A program made the position numbers and the translations under genes. The notes beneath the pieces were generated by a model. The model saw only the letters and a list, made by a program, of their open reading frames with translations, ran no database searches and was not told the DNA's origin. DNA of 64,000 nt, from positions 23,023,930 through 23,087,929 of the forward strand of contig CM034549.1 in the NCBI GenBank assembly GCA_020055645.1, in the 5' to 3' direction. This document shows, piece after piece, positions 7,147 through 23,696 of this stretch; within the stretch, counting starts at the first letter, position 1; each line of letters starts with the position of its first letter. The DNA is from Tomocerus qinae (lineage: Eukaryota; Arthropoda; Collembola; Entomobryomorpha; Tomoceridae).

Positions 7147-10100
7147 TCAAACGGCTGACTGAATGATTTCGGAATATTTCTTGATTTTCGACGATGTGCT
7201 CATGTCCACATATTTGTCTCCAATCGAAACAATCATTCCGCCAATGATGGTGGGATCAACCCTCGTTCTGATAAGAATCGATTGGCCAGACTTCACAAAT
7301 GACTTCAAGGCAGCTTCCAGCTCTTTTTGAAGGGTGGCATCTAACGCCTAAATATATTTAATATACATTATAAGTTATTTACACTAATATTATAACCTAT
7401 TTATATTTGGATTTATTGTATTATTTACTGCCATTTTTATTATGAATCCAACGTTTCTTTTCCTCTGCTGATAAGAGGACACAAATATCTTTGTACGTGG
7501 TCTGCTTTTTTAGTGCTCAGTCAAGCGCGAACTATCGTTATCAACAGTGGAAAAGAAACATTGGATTCATAATAACCAAAAGTGGCAAATAATTCGTATA
7601 ATTAATTGAATTTATTTTTGAAAAGGCAATTTTGACCTGTCGCGGAGTAGCTTTTGGTATGTTGGGGGTAGGTATTATTACATTGAATTTTTAGAAAACT
7701 GTTCGTCCGTAGCCACTCTGGGTCCAAACGCTAGGTGAAACGGTCGCGATAGGAAAAGGGTTGAAGGAAAGGTAGGTGTGCAATACAAGCACACCGCACT
7801 CATTTTAGGGCACCCGACTTGTGCTTAACCCTAGTCTTCCCAGGTTATAAAATCAAGGTTATGCCCAAATGGTCCATGCATGGCTGTGCGTTGTGATTGG
7901 TTGTTCACTTGTGGATTGCTTGGGAATTTTTGACTATCAGGGTTCGGAGCATGGTTTCATAAATAATATTATGTTCCACCACCCACCAGCAGCACTGTTA
8001 CAGTTACATGATGTGGTCCACCCACCCATGGACGCAGGGATTTCGAAACCATCACTGTCCATGGATGGACCAGCTTGGGCATTAGCGTAGAAAAGGGGAA
8101 AATAGGAATTTGTATGGCACACATGACTTTTGTATGAGAGAGCTAAAAATAGATAGTGTGACTTTGTATGGTGCTTTATGATTTTGGATGGCAAAATTTA
8201 ACATAATAGGTACTATGAAAGTATTAATAACCGAGACTGATTACGACTTTAGCTCCAATTTGAAGGGTTACTTTTACGAGTTGTGTACTTCACATAACAC
8301 ATAGCATATTTTAGTCGTGCTGCATTTTATTCGGTATGCAAGTTTGTGTTTACATTAGGTTATTATGAATGCAAGATGTACGGTAAAGGCGGAGCTATTA
8401 TGATATGGGAGTCTCGCTTTTTAATACTTTCATAGTAAATTGTCCCGGCCATAGTAGTCGTGTTCACTCACAAGCAATTTTTAACAAAATAAAGCAAACA
8501 TTAATGCAGAGGAGAGGAAATGTACAAATTGGAAAAATGATGGTAACATGCTAATTATGAGATAACGTCGGAGCTCAGAGCATTGACTTCACTTTACACA
8601 CACATATAGCTAACTATCCATGCTTTCTACATGGTTGTTCAGTTTCTACTTGGGTCTTATCATTCTACAATATATTTTTAGAGTTGAATAAATTTACCAA
8701 CCTATAAGGCCGCAGCGAGGGGGGGCGGCACCGGGGCACGTGCCCCTGCGGCCCTGCCAACCTATGGTGATATATATTGATATACTATGCATGCTTATAA
8801 AAAACCTATCACCATACATAGTCATGGTTTCCACACAAATTCATTAGGCAAGTCATAACATACCATATAAAGCCACACTAAATGTCAAAAAACCCCCCAT
8901 ACAAAAGTCATGTGTGTGCCATACAAATTAATTAACACAGGCCCATTGGCCAACCTATCTAGCCAGACTGTATATAATATTGTGCATATTTTCATAGCAA
9001 TTTATCTGAATTCTGAATTATCTGCTTCATTGTACACTACACACCCCCTGACTGGGGGAGGAATTTAAAAAATTAAAAAATAACTAAAAATCGACGTAAC
9101 TTCCGTTCTAGTCATCCTTCAACGTCGGACATGTTTTGCCACACTACTGAACAGGTTACAATCATCCGGCATCCACTGATAATGGAGGGTGAATAATTGA
9201 TAATAACTTAAAATCGACGTAACTTTGGTTCTGGTCATCCTATAACGTCGTGTAAAAGCTTGTTCGACAGCTGACATGTTTTTCCACATTTACTGTTCAA
9301 ACCATGAGTTGTGATAGTGATTTGACTTTTGACTACATTTTTGCCTCTCTCTGATTGGTCCAAATTTTTTGTCACTCGCCAATGAAATTGCAGATTTCAT
9401 TTTCATAAATCTATATGATTTCCAAAATGCATTTTAAGGGGTAGAATTTATGCACTCATGACAAAGAAATGAATAAGGGGATGAATACTAAACCCGAATC
9501 TCATTGCAACCTCATTCGCATGAACATAGTTGAATTGTTGGAAGTAATCTTGTGGATTAAAACTTTAAAGTAAATCTTATACATTGTCATAGTTGCATAC
9601 TATGTCAAGTGTGTTGCATACTCATTGATCATTGCATTATTTAAGTGGTAGTCGTAATTTCATTATTAATGTATGTATAGCTGCATCCAGTGTGTCTTGT
9701 ATATTGTATAACAAAAGCTATTGAGTATTGATGTGCTTTCTCATTCCGAGTAGTTTCTATCAAATCAAGTGCTATATGTATATTGCTTGTAATAAGATCC
9801 AATTAGCAATTTTCTGTGTTATAAATGAGGAAATATTCAGTAAAATAAAAAGTTTATTGTCTTAAAACGTACATTTTCGTACCTCGGTTCTGTGTTTACG
9901 AAGACTATTCCTTCCAACTATGACAATGTATAACAAATAAGATTTACTTTAAAGTTTTAATCCACAAGATTACTTCCAACAATTCAACTATGTTCATGCG
10001 AATGAGGTTGCAATGAGATGAGATTCGGATTTAGTATTCATCCCATTATTCATTTCTTTGTCATGAGTGCATAGTCTGCATAGTATTTGCTATTCAAGGT

Positions 10101-13100
10101 ATTTGCTTCATTAAATTCTACCCCTTAAAATGCATTTTGGAAATCATATAGATTTATGAAAATGAAATCTGCAATTTCATTGGCTAGTGACAAAAAATTT
10201 GGACCAATCAGAGAGAGGCAAAAATGTAGTCAAAAGTCAAATCACTATCACAACTCATGATTTGAACAGTACTGAACAGGTTATTGCAATCATCCCCTGA
10301 TAGGGAAAGTGGGTGAAAATTGGAATTAACCGAGGTGGGCCAAATTTCCATAGCAATACATTCGTAAATAGCCCACCTTGGAATTAACCAGATCTCTATG
10401 GAAAATGAAAATTGGTATGTGAGCTCACTAATGACGTCATTTTCGCCAATGACGTCACAACGTATTTTAAATGGCAACCCCCGAGGGGTGGCCTGATTGT
10501 TTCGAAACCCCAATATAGATTGATTGCCATTCCTTTTCAATATATTATATTCTATTTTCCTTGGAATTAACTGAAAATCGACTTAAGGCTGTTTCGATTA
10601 TACGATTGCTTAGCGACGAGCAGAAATGAGTACTGTGGGGGTGCTTGATAAACAATCCCACAGAATGTGACGTAATTTTAAATTGGCGCCCTTCCACCCA
10701 GTAGTAACAATTGTCACAATCTAGTGGTACCGTTAGGAAAGGTGTTGGAAAACCGCAAAACATTGATAAACTCAATTTGGGGCAACCGATTTCAAAATGT
10801 AGTAACCTCAAAAAATAGAGCACAAAATTCTGCAGTGGGTATTTTCCCCTGAATTTTTTTATCTCTACTATGATCACCAAATAACTTTGGACAATAAGAT
10901 TGAAGAATAATAAAACCGATAAGAAAATATAATAGGCTAGTTCGCGCATCAGTGAGCATGAACAATACAGGAGTTCGTGCTTCAGTGAGCACCTTTGTTC
11001 GTGCTCACTCAACCGCGAACTCGTCTATTATGTATTCTTATTGGTTGCATTTCTCCCACCCCAAAAATTATTACTTTTAGGGGATAAGGGCCAAAACCCC
11101 CCTCCGAAAAAATGTGGTACATATATTAAAACATATGAGAAATTTTTATCCCCCACGGGAAATGTGTTATCACTTATCAATATTTTGTGCATCGACGAGT
11201 CAGCCTTTAACATCTTTTCCATTCATCATTTATCGTACAAGGTCGTCTCGTGTAATAATAGCTTGTTCGACAGCTAATATTAAGTTGTGTGAGTGACACT
11301 TCTAAACTCTTAGGAACGCCCAAATAAACTGCTTTTTGCTACACCCGTTTTGCAATGGTTTATTATAACTAAAATCTTTTGAAAACTCACTTTTGCAGTT
11401 ACCACTTCGCATTCAATTTCTCCTCTATGAGCGCTCATGATTGTAGAAAACGAATTAGCGATTCCATTTAGCTGATTTAGACGTCCATTTTCAGCAAGCA
11501 AAACTATAAAATGAAAACCATTATTTATTACTATATATTGATATTTTACATTTGCATCCATAATAAGTATCATTTTACAGATTACCAATAAGATTAGCAG
11601 TAAGCTTGGATGCTTTGGTTGTTGCTAATGCAGATGATAGCAATTGTTTCTTTTCGCTTCTCTTTACAGACGGATTCATCAAGAAATCGGCAAATTTTCC
11701 TTTTTTCTTCAACAAGGCTCCAATGTCCTTTAAATCTTTCTCTACATTTTCTAATTGCTTTTGTTTCGAAGCAGCAGAGTACAATGCTGTGGCATAACGG
11801 CCATCAATTCCAAAAACTTGAACGGGAGCCTGTAAATATTAAACATATTAAGTTTCAATTTCCTTACATACCATCAAAATTAAATTACAAACATAATTCT
11901 GTTAGATTAATGAATATCACAATAGTTAGCACTAGCACTGATTGCTGCAATTTAAGACAACGTACCTTCACCAATTGGTTATCCACCGCAGAGAGGGAAA
12001 AGGACCGAGTCTAAAAACAGCAATAACAATTTGTTCTATTGGGTTAAGATGGCTTTAGACTTTAGGGACTTTATTATCGAGAATATAGTAAAACTGATAT
12101 AAACAGGGGTCGGTCAAACATTAAATACATATTTCGATTTAAGTTATTTGCAATGACACTTTCAAACTTATCGGAGAACTGAGAATCTAATTTTGGCTGC
12201 ATAAGACAAGAATACAAAAGACACATTTTATATAAAAGGATCAAGTTCTGAGCAATCTGGTCTAGAAGAGAAAATACACTTCCTCTTCTGCCGCTTGGAT
12301 ACTTCAGAATTTTACCAAAAACATTTATTATAATATTGAACATAACTTAGGTTTAGAATGTTTACGTTGAAGCTTTTATAACACACTAACAAAAGAGTAG
12401 TAGTTTAAAACAGAAAACAGACAACAGAGCATTTGTGCTTTGTATTAGCGTAGGCTAATTAAAATTAATATTATCACTATTTTTCTGCATGGGGCCATAA
12501 ATTCCTAACTTGTAGAACATTCTTCCTAAATTGGAATTATTTCATTTAAGGATCCCATTATTTCATGTGCGGGAAAAGGCTATTTACATGTAAATTATTT
12601 TTCAAGTCGCAAAAGCTTTTTAACTAATAACTTAATTGAAAAAAATAAAGAGACAAAAAATGTTTTTCATAATTGTCATCTAAAAAGTGAAGTATTTTTT
12701 TGACGATATTCCACTTCCTTCCCATTCGGAGAGCTGTAAAACAGGAAGGAAGTGGAGTATCGTCAAAAAAATATTTCACTTTTTAGATGACCGCATGACC
12801 ATATGAAAAACATTTTTTGTCTCTCTATTTTTTACAATCAAGTTATTAGTTAAAAAGCCTTTGCGACTTAAAAAATTTTATAATTTACAAGTAAATATCC
12901 AAATTTTTTAATTTTCCCGCATATGAAATAAAGAGATACTTAATACACAACGCCTCCAAAATATATACCATTACTACAAGCCAGGTTAAAAAAATACTTC
13001 AAGTAATTATAGCCAAAAATGGTCATCCCCCTTTACCCTTTCGATTTGCCTTCATACATTTAACATTGGTAAATGGCAAAGTAATAATTTCGTCATTCGT

Positions 13101-17418: not shown

Positions 17419-17983
17419 TTAAGGCTATCTCGACGATGCGCAGAACAGTGATAACACGTCCCCCGTGGGGAATAAAAATTTGTCATATTTTTTTAAACAT
17501 GTACCACATATTTTCTGAGGGCTTATTGTGGCCCTTTTTTCCAAAAAGTCCCCCAGTTTTTCAAAATTAAATAGTTTTTGGAGTGGGAGAAATACATGTG
17601 AATTTGAAAAACTCGCCTCGTTCTCTGTTATATGAAACATTAAAAGAAATAGCGCCACAATAAGCCCTCCAGAATTTTGTGCTCTATTTTTTGAGGTACT
17701 AAATTTTGAAATCAGTTGCCCCAAATAGGGGGTGCCAATGTTCTACGGTTTTCCAATACCAATATCTTGTGGCTACACTAGATTGTGCCAATTTTTACTA
17801 CAGGGAGTAAAGAAATAAAACCCCACCACTAGTGCGCGAAATTCAACATGCGGTAGAAGTAAACACACAACAATCTTATTGCTCCTCATCAGTTCAGAAA
17901 AGGGGTTTTTGCTGGTTGATTATTGCTCTCATTTTTATCTATTTTCTGTAGCATTGTAGACATTGGTTACCAATAATTTAAAT

Positions 17984-19478
17984 ATGAGCCACACTATTTG
18001 CAAGAAAATTACTCCTCCAAAGAAAACCTTTAGGAAGCCATCCGAAAATGTTGTAAGTTTTACCATTTTTATTACCATGTTAATAATTTACAATTTACCA
18101 TTGCAAATGTTAAAATTTTTAATGTTAAAATTTTTACATATGTATCATAGGAACGACTGTTAAAACTCTGCAACGACATTACGAACGAAGAGTATATGGA
18201 CCTCTGTTTCGAGTTAATCCGAAAATGCGATTCCAAAGAGCAATTGAATGTGTTGAAGAATTATATCACAGATTTGAACAAAAAGAAGCAACCAAAAGGA
18301 ATATTAGGAACCAAACCTTCTTTACCAGGTGACTGTCACTTACCTGAAACCTCTGTGAATAAGGTAACATACAATGTGATCTAAAATTCGTATAATGCTA
18401 CCAATATAAAAATATGTCGAAATTATATTGTTTTAATAGTGATCATATATTGATATAGGATGCTTCAGCGAGTGGGATTCCAAGTAAAGATTGCCCCGGT
18501 GCTTCTCATAAAGCAATCAGCATGTCAGCAGCTGCATTTCCAAAGGTAGTGCAGAAAACACCTCAACGTATTTATTCAATGAATAATTATTAACATTGCG
18601 TATCATTGCCTTTAAGGTTCCGTTTATTTACCGTGGGGATCTGATGGAAAAGTCATCAAAGTATTACATAGATGTTGAAAAGGTTGACTTGTTAGGGACT
18701 CCCCAGAAAACTGCCGGAACAATTGCTGTTGTTAATAAGCAAGGGAAATTACTATTTTGGGCAATCATAAATCACAAAAATGTATGCAAGTATTACACCG
18801 AAATAACTGGACTGACTAAGGAAATTATGGATAAAGGGATTAATTTTGAAATAGTAAGTTTGACATTGATATATAGATCCACACCCCTTTATTAATGACA
18901 TTATTTTAAACTTGTAATGCCAATTCTTTATTTCTTAGGTTAAAACTTTACTTCATAAAGCATTCAGTAAAAAGATTATTGTTGGAACTGACGTGAAAAA
19001 TGATTTGATTTCAATGGGATTTTCAAATGCGAATTATGACTTTGAAGTTGATGACACCCACACCTACTTCAGAGACAGCAACAATCAAGCCATGGGATTG
19101 ACCTTTTTAAGCCAACACTTCTTTGGTTTCGATCGACAACTTAAAAGCGGCATACATAATGCAATCACAGATGCACGTTTGACTTTGCTCTGCCACAAAA
19201 AATGGGAAAAATTCAAGTTAATCCATCCAGAAGCAACAATATTCAATTGTCCAAACCTTAGCGAAGAAAGAATGATGGGGAAAGGCAGAGGAAAGATTTC
19301 AAGTTTTGTTTTCAAAGAAAAATGCAAATGCGGATATCACCAACAAAAGAAAAAGAAGAAAACCCATATTTTTGATACGATTGGTAATTTTAAATGCAGT
19401 AAGATGTTAATTTCCGATGATTGGGATATTAGTTTCGGGACTACAAGTGAGGCAAATAATGCAGATGAATGGGAGTAA
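17984..19478 (+). CDS. DEDDh 3'-5' exonuclease (ISG20/REXO-like) carried by the transposon
   Basis: Exons 17984-18052, 18151-18363, 18459-18545, 18617-18853 and 18939-19478 are joined with consistent phase and give 381 residues. Residues 1-123 are a basic, lysine-rich leader with no recognised domain. The nuclease fold covers about 138-292. Its catalytic set is complete: D142 and E144 (IDVEKV), D224 (VKNDL), H275 and D280 (HNAITDARLT). This pattern fits the ISG20/REXO4 branch of DEDDh exonucleases, which degrade RNA or single-stranded DNA. The tail has a KCKCGYH segment and a run of lysines. It converges on the transposase gene within the same TIR-bounded element, so I read it as element cargo. 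Substrate and role are unknown. A captured host gene is the alternative. Confidence 0.8.
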
Positions 19479-19559
19479 TATAAGATTTCAAGATTTTTGT
19501 GCGTTGTATTAATTAATTTTATTGCTACCTTTATACACTAATTATATAATACAATTAAG

Positions 19560-19990
19560 TTTTCATGGCATAATGAGAACCGGGACGTACTCTACAGTGT
19601 ACTCCACTCTCTAGTGTGTAACTGCTCTTTCAAAAATTATATTATTGTTCACTAAATAAACCATACAATTAACTTTACGTGGCATAATGAGAACCGGGAC
19701 GTACTCTACAGTGTACTCCACTCTCTAGTGTGTAACTGCTCTTTCAAAAATTATATTATTGTTCACTAAATAAACCATACAATTAACTTTACGTGGCATA
19801 ATGAGAACCGGGACGTACTCTACAGTGTACTCCACTCTCTCTTTTGTAATTACATTTTCAAAACATAAATATCATTATTTACGAAATAAATTATACAATT
19901 AAACTTTTCATGGCTGGCGAAATAATGGGGACCGGGGCGTAATATGCATTTCATTGTCTCTTTTGTAATCGCTACTTCTAAGAAGTCTAT
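19560..19990. repeat. Tandem 114-bp repeats between the two transposon genes
   Basis: Three close copies have GGCATAATGAGAACCGGGAC starting at 19567, 19681 and 19795. A decayed fourth starts near 19912. The first two units are nearly identical. Each has an AAATAAA that could serve as poly(A) signal for the exonuclease gene. Related motifs recur at 22860-23230. Confidence 0.9.
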
Positions 19991-20004
19991 GTTGTGGAAT
20001 ACCA

Positions 20005-22771
20005 CTATTCGGCATCTGGTGGCATAGTGAATAATACCTTAGGGTTTATTTTTCTTTTCTTTACTGGGGTGTTCACTTTCTGGTTTTCCTTTAGTTTTCT
20101 TTTCAGCAAATTCTTTCTGGAAGATTTTATTCCTACATTTTGTGGACATGATGGTCCTAATGCTTTTCTGTACAACTGAAGTTCCTTATTAATCACAAAA
20201 GGTATGTCTCTTATTGGTTGCCCCCTTTCAACTCTGGGGTCTACCAGTTCTGGTACTAAGACTGTTTCATAGAACCTCTCTAATTCAGGTTTTAATAGTG
20301 CCCATAATATTTCGTCCTGTTGTATTTTTTGACAAAAGTAGTTTTTACCTATTTCTCCGTTTGGTAAAAATACAAAAAAATAACACATTTTTCTTTGAGT
20401 TATACCCATTTGACCTGTTATTTGAAAGTAATATTGATGATTTCTGATTAACTTTATTTCATCGCCACATATATCCAAATATGGTATAACTCCTTCTCTG
20501 ATAGCTGCCTCTATAGTAGAATAATTTCTCGCTGCATACGGGCATTTTATCTCCAAAATAGCAGTTTCCCCTACCCATCCATCTGTAGATGCTCCTAACA
20601 GGCCGTTGGGAAGATCAATATATAGGCCAGCTTTACGAACCTTAATATTATATGCCTTTTCAAATGCAATTCTAGCTTTCTCTTCATTTTCTAATCCAAA
20701 TCCTCTTGGACCTATCAAATTTAACCGGTTCTCCTCTTTAGAATACAACAAATTTTTAACTATGTTTATGGAAGAAGTCTTCTCCAGTTTCCTGACAATA
20801 GTAAAAAAGTTAGATGCCGTTAGTAATTGCTTTCTCTGGGTTACCCACGCGTCGCTTAAACTTTGTTCAATAGTTTTCATTTCAATCAAATCTCGTTCTT
20901 CTTTCGTAATACGTCTTTCTTTCATAAAATTGGATACTTCCAGTATGTAATTGTTCTCGCTCATATCTTCTTTAGTATTACCACCACCATAATCTTTATC
21001 GTCTTCAGTGACTCTGTGTCTGTTGCAGCGTGGCTTTTTAACCACTAGTTTCTGAGTGCAAAACAAAATTCAGTTAAAAATGTGTTATGTAGTATAAAAT
21101 ATATTAAATACTATAGAGTGGGATACGTTGTAATGTATGCCCCGGGTATACCTTTAATGAAAAGGCCTTCGATTTCCAAACACTGTTTGGACTTTTGTGG
21201 AAATTGCGTTTGAATGTCAGTCTTTCAGAATTATTTTTCTGCTTATGACTGTTGGCAGCTATTAGTACCCTTGTAGTATACTGATTTCGCAAGAACAAAT
21301 TCTTTCGTTTTCCCCCAATATATTTTGCGACAACCGACATAAATGCTTCTGCTTGGTTACTTCTAAGGTTTGATATTAGGGATTCTGACAAGTTTGATAA
21401 TCTTTGAAATATAACATTGAATTCTTTCCAGAATATTACATCTTCTGTTACGACGTGTCCAGGACTATCACCTTTTTTACAGAAATAGTTTCTACATTTA
21501 CTGTGTATATTGGCCATGTGATAGGGAACGTTAACTAAGTCATCATGCAGAGTCTTCCAATTTTGTTTGCCATCTTGGTTCAAATGGTTATATTTTATAG
21601 CCGCTATGCAATTGGATCCCGCCTTTGGTATGACACTTTGTAGCCATTTTCTGGATGATAATTTATAAGCTTTGGTCTGCCTGGTAATTTTGTATAAATT
21701 TGAAGTTGCACAACGAATCGCATGATTTACACAGTTGCTTTTAGTAATTTTGATGTTATATCTTTGATGCATGGCTTCTTTAACAGTAGGAAAACAACTG
21801 GAGTCTTGATCTCCTAAAACATTTGTGTAGAATAATTGGTGCATTGCTTTGCTTTTCAAGAAACCTTCCAGAACGATTTCAGTCTCCATCGAGTTTGCCG
21901 ATCCTTCGTGGTTTTTGAAACACTTGTGAGGAGAAGAACTTTGTCCTAAGCTATCACAAATGAAACAGTATTTATTTTTTATTCCTAACCACAAAAGACT
22001 TCCTGTCTTGTTTCCTATTATTACAGCACAGCCGGACAAGGATTTGTAGGAATGGCCGTAACTCCGTTTTCCCCAGCCTCCGTCACATGTCACCGAAATA
22101 CCTGGCACGCCATCGTAATAAACTGTATTCGGATCCATCAAAGCTAGCTCTTTTTCTTTCTTTCCGTTTTCGGTAACTGTTTTCCATAAGGCAGTTTCGT
22201 GATATTTGTGTACTTTCATTTCGTTGTCCCTGTAACATTTATAGCTTAGTGGAGGAATGTCTAACACTTTAAGTTGGTCAAATAAAGATTTGTATCCTCC
22301 ACCACCCAACATTGCTCCCCAAGTTGCAGCTTGGTTTACTGGTAAGGATGTTTGCGATGAGTCTGTTAGCAATTTCAGTTTTTTGGAGCAAATGTCGCAA
22401 CGTATGTGAAGAGTGGAGTGAATTCCATTCCAGGTTTCTTTTAAAATGTAAAGGCTGCCATCATGACATCGTTTATTATGTTCTTTTGAGACATCCAACA
22501 ACTTTTGAAAAAAGGATACACATACAATTCTCCTTCCAGTCATTTGTCGTGTCCTAATAGGTTTTGCGTTTGAATGATTGCTAGTCTTGTTTGAACCAGA
22601 ACATGTTGATAAATTAGCTGAAGAAATTGGAGTTGATGCATCAGATATGATTATACCGAGATTTTCAGTTGATGTATAGTTAATTTCATTTTCAGTAGAA
22701 TGTGGACGTAAATTCCGTTTCAATCTGTTTTTAAGAAGTCGCCTTTTGTAAATTTTTCTCTTTTTGTTCAT
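20005..22771 (-). CDS. Mutator/Kolobok-like DDE transposase fused to a YqaJ nuclease
   Basis: Exon 1 is 22771-21152 and exon 2 is 21051-20005, on the minus strand. A 100-bp GT-AG intron joins them in phase 0, giving 888 residues. Residues 1-540 match the animal Mutator-like transposase domain: C125/C128, D230 (CDGGW), C269/C272, D321 or D323 (GDQDSS), C347/H350 (CVNH) and E475 (NQAEA). Residues 541-888 are a YqaJ/lambda-exonuclease domain: LTASNF at 617-622, GLENE at 659-663, D697 (ASTDG) and E707-K709 (LEIKCP). The first ATG is chosen; an acceptor site 10 bp upstream suggests a 5' UTR intron. Without splicing the transposase would end at 21104 and the YqaJ frame would lack an ATG, which favours the fusion. 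All key residues are present and no stop occurs, so the gene may be active. Confidence 0.8.
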
Positions 22772-22859
22772 GTTGAGTAAACTAAAAGAATACAACAGTA
22801 TATCACATTATTAAACATTGGATTGAAGAGTGGATATTGAATATTAAACAGAAAATTAA

Positions 22860-23230
22860 CTGCTGACGTGCTAAAACAGGGACGATTTAAATTTCTCCAG
22901 AACCCGGGACGAATGTTACTATATTCTCCACTCTTCAACGATACTACTGTTGGTACGATATCCTTCTGTGACTAAAACTCAGGACAATTAGCACTTTAAT
23001 TAGTTGATTAGCTACGTGGACTAGAACACGGGACGAATGTTGCTTTATTCCTCTTTCTTCTACGCTGTTGTTACTTTTAAACAAATGGCTGTATTTCTCA
23101 CACCTAGAAAAAGTTCATAATATATGATTAACTGGTAACAAACAGCTGTTTATCAGTGGCCTATCAGTAACGTCAGCACTTACACTAGTTTGAGTGGAAC
23201 CGAGAACAAACATTCTAATTTCTGGTCGTC
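22860..23230. repeat. Degenerate repeats upstream of the transposase, related to 19560-19990
   Basis: GAACCCGGGACGAATGTTAC (about 22900) and GAACACGGGACGAATGTTGC (about 23024) match the core of the 114-bp units in the same orientation. A weaker GTGGAACCGAGAACAAACAT follows near 23193. They lie between the transposase start and the right end of the element, so they could be transposase binding sites or promoter repeats. Confidence 0.65.
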
Positions 23231-23696
23231 AGTACTTACAGTGCAATATGACCCCTCGGATTAACTGTAAATGGCAAATAATTAATTACACAATGAATAA
23301 GGGTAATAAAAGGAGAAAAAATTATTGTGACAACATCGTTAAACAGAAATAAACAGTTACCTATTATTGATAGAAAATAAGGACAAATGTAGCACCTATA
23401 TTTAGGTAATCTGGATTGAAGTACAAAAACCATTAGCTTTCAAATCTTTTAACAATAAAGTGTGAAACCCAAAATTTAAAATACCGTCGTTACAAAACAA
23501 TAAATTTCGATTTTCTAGACAACCGCACGTCAGAAGATGTAAAATGTTGCATGTTGTACGTTGAGATGCAGCATTACTTTTTGTGTATACTAATACAAGC
23601 CAAATTGAACAAGGTTTGTTTATTACTTTTCTCCCTGTAGTATTAAAAGTTCGCGCAGGCGTAAGTCTGCTGTTCGTATCATCGAGACAGCCTTAA

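Follow-up and report, generated by a model that had tools for sequence, protein, structure and literature searches.

A TTAA-flanked Kolobok-type DNA transposon of the springtail Tomocerus qinae pairs a DEDDh exonuclease gene with a transposase-YqaJ nuclease gene

A 64,000-nucleotide stretch of the Tomocerus qinae genome (GenBank assembly GCA_020055645.1, contig CM034549.1, positions 23,023,930 to 23,087,929), called the window here, contains a whole transposable element of 6,278 base pairs (bp) with two convergent genes, one for a predicted DEDDh exonuclease and one for a transposase fused to a YqaJ-type nuclease. The element occupies exactly window positions 17419–23696 and is flanked on each side by TTAA (17419–17422 and 23693–23696). 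The 18-bp terminal inverted repeats GGCTATCTCGACGATGCG (17423–17440, plus strand) and GGCTGTCTCGATGATACG (23675–23692, minus strand) agree at 15 of 18 positions and are part of a 31-nucleotide (nt) inverted repeat that is 81% complementary. Kolobok elements are defined by 5'-RR...YY-3' termini, and GG...CC termini are present in the window family and in three further families described below.

The exonuclease gene lies on the plus strand and consists of five exons that, spliced at GT-AG boundaries read from the sequence, give an open frame for a 381-residue protein. Exon 1 (17984–18052) carries the start codon and is followed by exon 2 (18151–18363), exon 3 (18459–18545), exon 4 (18617–18853; D142 and E144) and exon 5 (18939–19478; D224, H275, D280 and the stop codon). 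These five catalytic residues, D, E, D, H and D, are invariant across five families. The window protein alone gave a weak match to ISG20 among solved-structure sequences (E = 3.8e-4), and a profile built from four families matched ISG20 (E = 1e-9), ISG20L2 (4e-9) and SDN1 (6e-6). The 12 Protein Data Bank matches to E = 10 comprise ISG20, ISG20L2, SDN1, DnaQ, PAN2, PolC, DEDDh and Cas2-DEDDh entries; none names TREX or ERI1, an absence that excludes nothing. The protein is thus predicted to be a DEDDh 3'-5' exonuclease, nearest to ISG20 and SDN1, acting on DNA or RNA. The exonuclease alone matched nothing at E ≤ 10 among 1,276 candidates from a collection of 5.8 billion proteins, and a five-family profile found a single match at E ≤ 0.01 among 4,340 candidates, a protein of the springtail Allacma fusca (E = 4e-42). 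The Allacma protein has 596 residues and joins a DEDDh exonuclease to a PF07534 domain; the model may be a fusion that spans a transposon. A scan of viral contigs with exon 5 gave 27 pattern matches and no confirmed relative, and plasmid records searched with the exon 5 stretch gave no match.

The transposase gene lies on the minus strand and has two exons separated by a GT-AG intron, again read from the sequence, which together encode an open 888-residue protein. Exon 1 (21152–22771) encodes the RNase H-like DDE transposase with two zinc-finger motifs, and exon 2 (20005–21051) encodes the YqaJ/lambda-exonuclease-like nuclease domain and the stop codon. The DDE signature consists of D230, D321/D323, C347-x2-H350 and E475, with the C/DxxH motif between the second D and the last E as the Kolobok superfamily requires. 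A CCHC zinc finger follows the first D (C269, C272, H282, C284) and a second finger lies between the CxxH motif and the last E (H418, H423, C426, C431); both are invariant in 11 sequences. The YqaJ catalytic residues D697, E707 and K709 are present, and this domain resembles LHK-Exo and lambda exonuclease by fold and LHK-Exo also by sequence. The transposase model is nearest to ISCth4 by fold, at about 10% identity, and resembles the cut-and-paste transposase Hermes at a lower Z score. Outside relatives of the transposase include proteins from Nilaparvata, Cydia, Rhynchophorus and Exocentrus. In gene models of Rhynchophorus ferrugineus and Exocentrus adspersus, a stretch 38% identical to the YqaJ exon is joined to domains of LEM-domain proteins, through either an erroneous model or the capture of a transposon nuclease. 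Transposase scans of viral contigs (12 and 24 pattern matches) and genome contigs (40) confirmed no relative.

A first-pass annotation of this stretch had described a TTAA transposon with two nucleases besides its transposase, named both Kolobok and piggyBac as users of TTAA, and proposed Pfam searches of both proteins. Both nucleases are confirmed, the YqaJ enzyme as a domain within the transposase protein and not as a gene of its own. In Pfam the transposase matches PF20700, with no piggyBac family among its four matches to E = 1. The window exonuclease alone gave just one weak match under the family cut-off (DUF4406, E = 0.04), and RNase_T was matched by one of four exonuclease family members (E = 9e-8). 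Kolobok features were found and those of piggyBac were not, and the element is accordingly classified, on its sequence features, as a member of the Kolobok superfamily and not of piggyBac.

A search of the source assembly (334,443,149 bases in 115 contigs) with the complete element scored 40 of 366 candidates, and the copy counts are therefore lower bounds. At least five full-length copies are present, including that in the window. Three of the other four are 99.95, 99.67 and 99.16% identical to it, and the fourth, L005, is 99.45% identical over 6,174 of 6,278 bp and carries an insertion of about 480 bp close to its right end. TTAA adjoins all ten ends of the five copies, the left and the right end alike, and the end bases are the same at each site while the flanks differ. 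The exonuclease gene, open or broken, lies inside the ends in all five. These copies bear out the earlier description of a complete TTAA transposon with inverted termini and of an exonuclease gene that travels within them. The position of the exonuclease inside the ends, in these copies and in other families, contradicts the alternative of a host gene that adjoins or underlies the element.

The genes are intact in the window copy, as the first-pass annotation had it, and among the other four full-length copies L005 alone likewise has both open. In L002 the transposase gene is open and the exonuclease contains a premature stop; L004 shows the opposite pattern, with the exonuclease gene open and the transposase gene broken; and both genes are broken in L003 and L006/L007. 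L006/L007 and L008 are among the older broken or partial copies in the matches listed. The near-identity of copies at five different TTAA sites indicates that the window family moved recently, as had also been proposed; present-day movement of any copy is not implied.

Protein searches of the same genome gave 137 exonuclease matches (108 of 350 candidates scored) and 74 transposase matches (51 of 335 scored). All 74 transposase rows and 117 of the 137 exonuclease rows were clustered; the 20 omitted rows were 18 further exon rows of six window-family loci already represented and the two weakest matches (E = 0.04 and 0.98). Clustering yielded at least 39 transposase loci and at least 91 exonuclease loci. 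The transposase loci fall into a near group (47–100% identical to the window protein) and a distant group (28–38%), with the cut placed after the gap was seen. Among the 26 near loci listed, 20 have a convergent exonuclease within 8 kb, the largest gap being 4.3 kb, and six of these 20 are copies of the window family. The genome search found a convergent exonuclease at one of the 13 distant loci listed.

Seven further stretches were read directly, including two of the 13 distant loci (L045 and L046) and one of the six near loci without an exonuclease match (L044). L029 and L030 contain all three domains, with transposase, YqaJ and exonuclease 51–52, 45–47 and 36–48% identical to those of the window element; the L029 transposase is interrupted by stops. 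L031 holds pieces of all three domains, and L032 is an internally deleted relative of L029 that keeps the exonuclease and part of the transposase. L045 and L046, both copies of a single distant family (transposase about 30% identical), each have the exonuclease gene in three pieces. The L046 exonuclease was missed by the genome search and found on direct reading, whereas L045 had a search match; the low distant-clade count thus reflects search sensitivity at least in part. The count of one in 13 cannot be taken to mean a distant clade without the exonuclease, since direct reading found the gene at both distant loci read. Direct reading showed the two genes converging in the window family, L029, L030, L031 (as pieces) and L045/L046.

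TTAA-flanked GG...CC ends with both nucleases inside were identified in four families: the window family, L030, L029/L032 and L045/L046. L030 has TTAA at 253 and 6494 of its stretch and 17 of 20 terminal bases agree; L032 has TTAA at 501 and 4813 and 18 of 20 agree. L029, the long form of the L032 family, has TTAA on the right and a dimer junction on the left. L045 and L046 are 97.6–98.9% alike over matching pieces, L045 being interrupted by about 3.6 kb. Their likeness begins at TTAA-GGTGGGGGAAACCC and stops at ...CCACC-TTAA, the flanks differ on both sides, and the termini agree at 15 of 20 positions. A search for TTAA termini at L031 found no ends.

Synonymous positions are saturated between families (proportion of synonymous differences, pS, 0.71–0.86). 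Nonsynonymous distances in the exonuclease exons are 0.38–0.58 among near families and 0.66–0.79 to the distant family, and the near-family values are 0.38–0.42 for the transposase and 0.52–0.56 for YqaJ. The comparison uses single genomic copies and includes their decay after insertion, which works against the signal. Amino-acid change in the exonuclease is far below synonymous change, which indicates that selection keeps the gene, apparently about as it keeps the YqaJ domain.

The L029/L032 family also revealed head-to-tail dimers. Exonuclease matches of this family are spaced about one element length apart at three places, and the genome was searched for exact junctions (right end, gap of 0–12, left end, no mismatch), a pattern that leaves decayed junctions uncounted. 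Three junctions were found and a reversed control gave none. The dimers lie at C2:44610824 (L034), C2:66313418 (L035) and C2:36481579 (L033), and all run from right end to left end; two junctions share one TTAA and one has AA. TTAA adjoins all six outer ends and the outer flanks differ, so the dimers represent three independent events. Exact left ends of this family number 61 genome-wide (31 plus, 30 minus; control 0), for which random insertion among about 3.2 million TTAA sites, a number scaled from the window, predicts about 0.0012 shared-TTAA pairs. The exact pattern detected no head-to-head junction of this family in the genome and no junction of the window family, though the latter has few copies. 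One head-to-head pair of L029/L032 left ends, at C5:20967254-20967322, has 21 bp between its TTAA sites. The dimers fit a head-to-tail intermediate like that of copy-out/paste-in ISCth4, or a preference for TTAA beside existing copies. Insertion near existing copies, with a 2:1:1 expectation, yields three of three head-to-tail dimers with a chance of 1 in 8, and the orientation of the dimers therefore does not decide the mechanism.

The left end of the window element includes a block of about 392 bp (17419–17810, plus strand) that is also present by itself at other sites, in the manner of short non-autonomous relatives; among the 46 genome matches listed, 33 span nothing but the left end, and most of these stop near element base 392. 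Subterminal inverted repeat arms are located at 17796–17819 (24 nt, plus strand) and 23619–23642 (minus strand) and are 92% complementary. A degenerate pattern of TTAA plus terminus, allowing up to three mismatches, matches the window at three places, and 100 shuffles gave no match. The third match is the end of a 628-bp non-autonomous relative resembling a miniature inverted-repeat transposable element (10583–11210, minus strand), which has TTAA at both ends with one extra A at the right. Its right part matches the left end of the element (82.6% over 138 bp, E = 5e-28, and 80.6% over 103 bp) and its left end corresponds to the right terminus. This relative gives a second occurrence of the termini within the window, and the termini hence belong to a real family. 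Wrongly chosen ends are contradicted by the 628-bp relative together with the five full-length copies.

A 114-bp tandem repeat of 3.2 copies (19549–19914) sits between the convergent genes. A related 42-nt motif appears again at 22899–22940 and 23023–23064, near the right end, and the old copy L008 seems to hold more units of the 114-bp repeat. The repeat and its related motif may form an array that serves in binding or regulation. A nested palindrome at 9291–10271, immediately to the left of the 628-bp relative, combines a 160-nt inverted repeat (99% complementary, arms 661 nt apart) with one of 83 nt (100% complementary, arms 356 nt apart) and looks like another foldback element. The window also contains two arrays of a 40-bp tandem repeat (11–467 and 1033–1566), a 214-nt repeat (83%) alongside them at 651–864 and 1755–1968, and a 75-nt inverted repeat at 12597–12876 (93% complementary, 130 nt between arms).

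In the hAT/MuDR/Kolobok group, DDE transposases catalyse the cutting and joining of DNA; enzymes of the YqaJ/lambda type digest 5' strands, and those of the DEDDh type digest 3' ends. We favor, with reservations, the interpretation that the element is an autonomous Kolobok DNA transposon that brings its own pair of end-processing nucleases rather than relying on those of the host. The transposase would cut at the element ends and insert the element at TTAA. Its tethered YqaJ domain, which the fusion would deliver to the ends, would resect 5' strands at the donor break or on the excised element, and the DEDDh enzyme would trim 3' ends or single-stranded intermediates. The least secure step is how the two nucleases would divide the labour, and their part in end processing is suggested by homology, conservation and linkage. 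Because the pair recurs in distant relatives within the source genome, both enzymes probably matter for the element's movement or survival. Recurrence at about 50 and about 30% transposase identity, the invariant DEDDh residues and the saturated synonymous change argue that the second nuclease is not chance cargo. Several observations weigh against a self-supplied end-processing pair. Kinship with ISG20 and SDN1 fits a role on RNA as well as one on DNA, and the TTAA duplication is deduced from the TTAA found on either side. The relatives in which both genes are seen together all come from one genome; outside it the matches are the Allacma exonuclease without its surroundings and transposase or transposase-YqaJ proteins. 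At L044 the transposase-YqaJ gene is largely open, yet of the exonuclease gene only a remnant is left.

The main rival holds that the DEDDh enzyme is a counter-defence ribonuclease that destroys small or silencing RNAs of the host, and that YqaJ alone serves transposition. ISG20 and SDN1 kin often act on RNA, the best solved-structure relatives include ISG20L2 and the small RNA degrading nuclease SDN1 besides ISG20, and the exonuclease gene stands apart from the transposase gene, faces it in convergent orientation and has introns of its own. A sequence match does not, however, tell an RNA from a DNA substrate, and retention of the exonuclease beside a nuclease-bearing transposase in near and distant families fits joint action too; we regard the ribonuclease role as unlikely, if worth keeping in view. 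The loss of most of the gene at L044, and the fact that DEDDh exonucleases are common host genes, would suit a roleless passenger captured once from the host. All five catalytic residues are nevertheless kept in five families, the convergent layout persists down to about 30% transposase identity, and amino-acid change stays far below synonymous change; these results contradict the strong form of the passenger proposal, and the 30–50% identity between families speaks against rescue by gene conversion, which leaves the proposal very improbable.

Movement by copy-out/paste-in or another replicative route, through a circular or head-to-tail intermediate in whose replication or recombination both exonucleases act, is a rather doubtful alternative. 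The transposase model is nearest to an enzyme, ISCth4, that is described as copy-out/paste-in (PMC7780238); a circular intermediate has already been raised for KolobokP (PMC9587614); and three independent sister-family dimers stand against about 0.001 expected from random TTAA insertion. Yet the model resembles Hermes in fold as well, if at a lower Z, no exact-pattern junction was found in the window family, few as its copies are, and the head-to-head pair 21 bp apart indicates that insertion near existing copies could also yield dimers. A broader proposal, that the element represents a deep animal Kolobok lineage whose two-nuclease recombination kit, a 5'-resecting lambda exonuclease fused to the transposase plus a standalone 3'-5' DEDDh enzyme, moves or amplifies it through end-joined circular or head-to-tail DNA in the manner of phage Red, is similarly speculative. 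Assignment to piggyBac or to an ISL2EU/Harbinger type is scarcely credible. TTAA is also used by piggyBac (PMC9587614) and ISL2EU has YqaJ proteins (PMC4482050), but the GG...CC termini, the PF20700 match and the missing piggyBac family match oppose the former, and in ISL2EU the duplication is AT and YqaJ occupies a second open reading frame (ORF; PMC4482050), unlike the fused domain and TTAA site found here.

A compact element with both nucleases, near-identical copies, two with both genes open, and diverged sister families of the same layout would allow the role of accessory nucleases in eukaryotic DNA transposons to be tested directly. If the DEDDh enzyme does act on small RNAs, it would represent transposon-borne counter-defence.

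Among known systems, ISCth4, of the IS256 family, differs as a bacterial insertion sequence with a single transposase ORF (PMC7780238) at about 10% identity. ISL2EU, also a DNA transposon of eukaryotes, likewise encodes a YqaJ exonuclease, but it has a PIF/Harbinger-like transposase in addition to the AT duplication and second-ORF YqaJ already noted (PMC4482050); the window element has TTAA ends and YqaJ fused to the transposase. KolobokP is a Kolobok with an accessory nuclease for which multimers are discussed along with the possible circle, and it has long terminal direct repeats (PMC9587614), whereas a repeat search of the window element found no direct repeat of at least 16 nt pairing its ends. 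A CCHC zinc finger after the first D is common to KolobokP, E, D and 5 (PMC9587614).

Each nuclease has singly been described in Kolobok already (PMC9587614). KolobokE encodes a lambda-exonuclease-like nuclease, and the window element resembles it in having such a domain, YqaJ, in the transposase protein and the CCHC finger after the first D; the difference is the DEDDh exonuclease, which the available text does not name for KolobokE (PMC9587614). KolobokD, found in mollusks, arthropods and cnidarians, encodes a DEDDh nuclease proposed to degrade intermediates from the 3' end, and is like the window element in this respect (PMC9587614). Its nuclease is likened to exuperantia, TREX and ERI1, whereas the best solved-structure matches of that of the window element are ISG20, ISG20L2 and SDN1, and the accessible description, the sole basis of the KolobokD comparison, mentions no lambda-exonuclease-like domain (PMC9587614). 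No report of both nucleases in one element was found in a literature search that missed most subscription papers and preprints and compared KolobokD by description only; KolobokD may therefore include elements that combine them. By its sequence the window element is best placed as a KolobokE-type element that additionally carries a DEDDh exonuclease, and the finding prompts the question of whether KolobokE and KolobokD form a single lineage.

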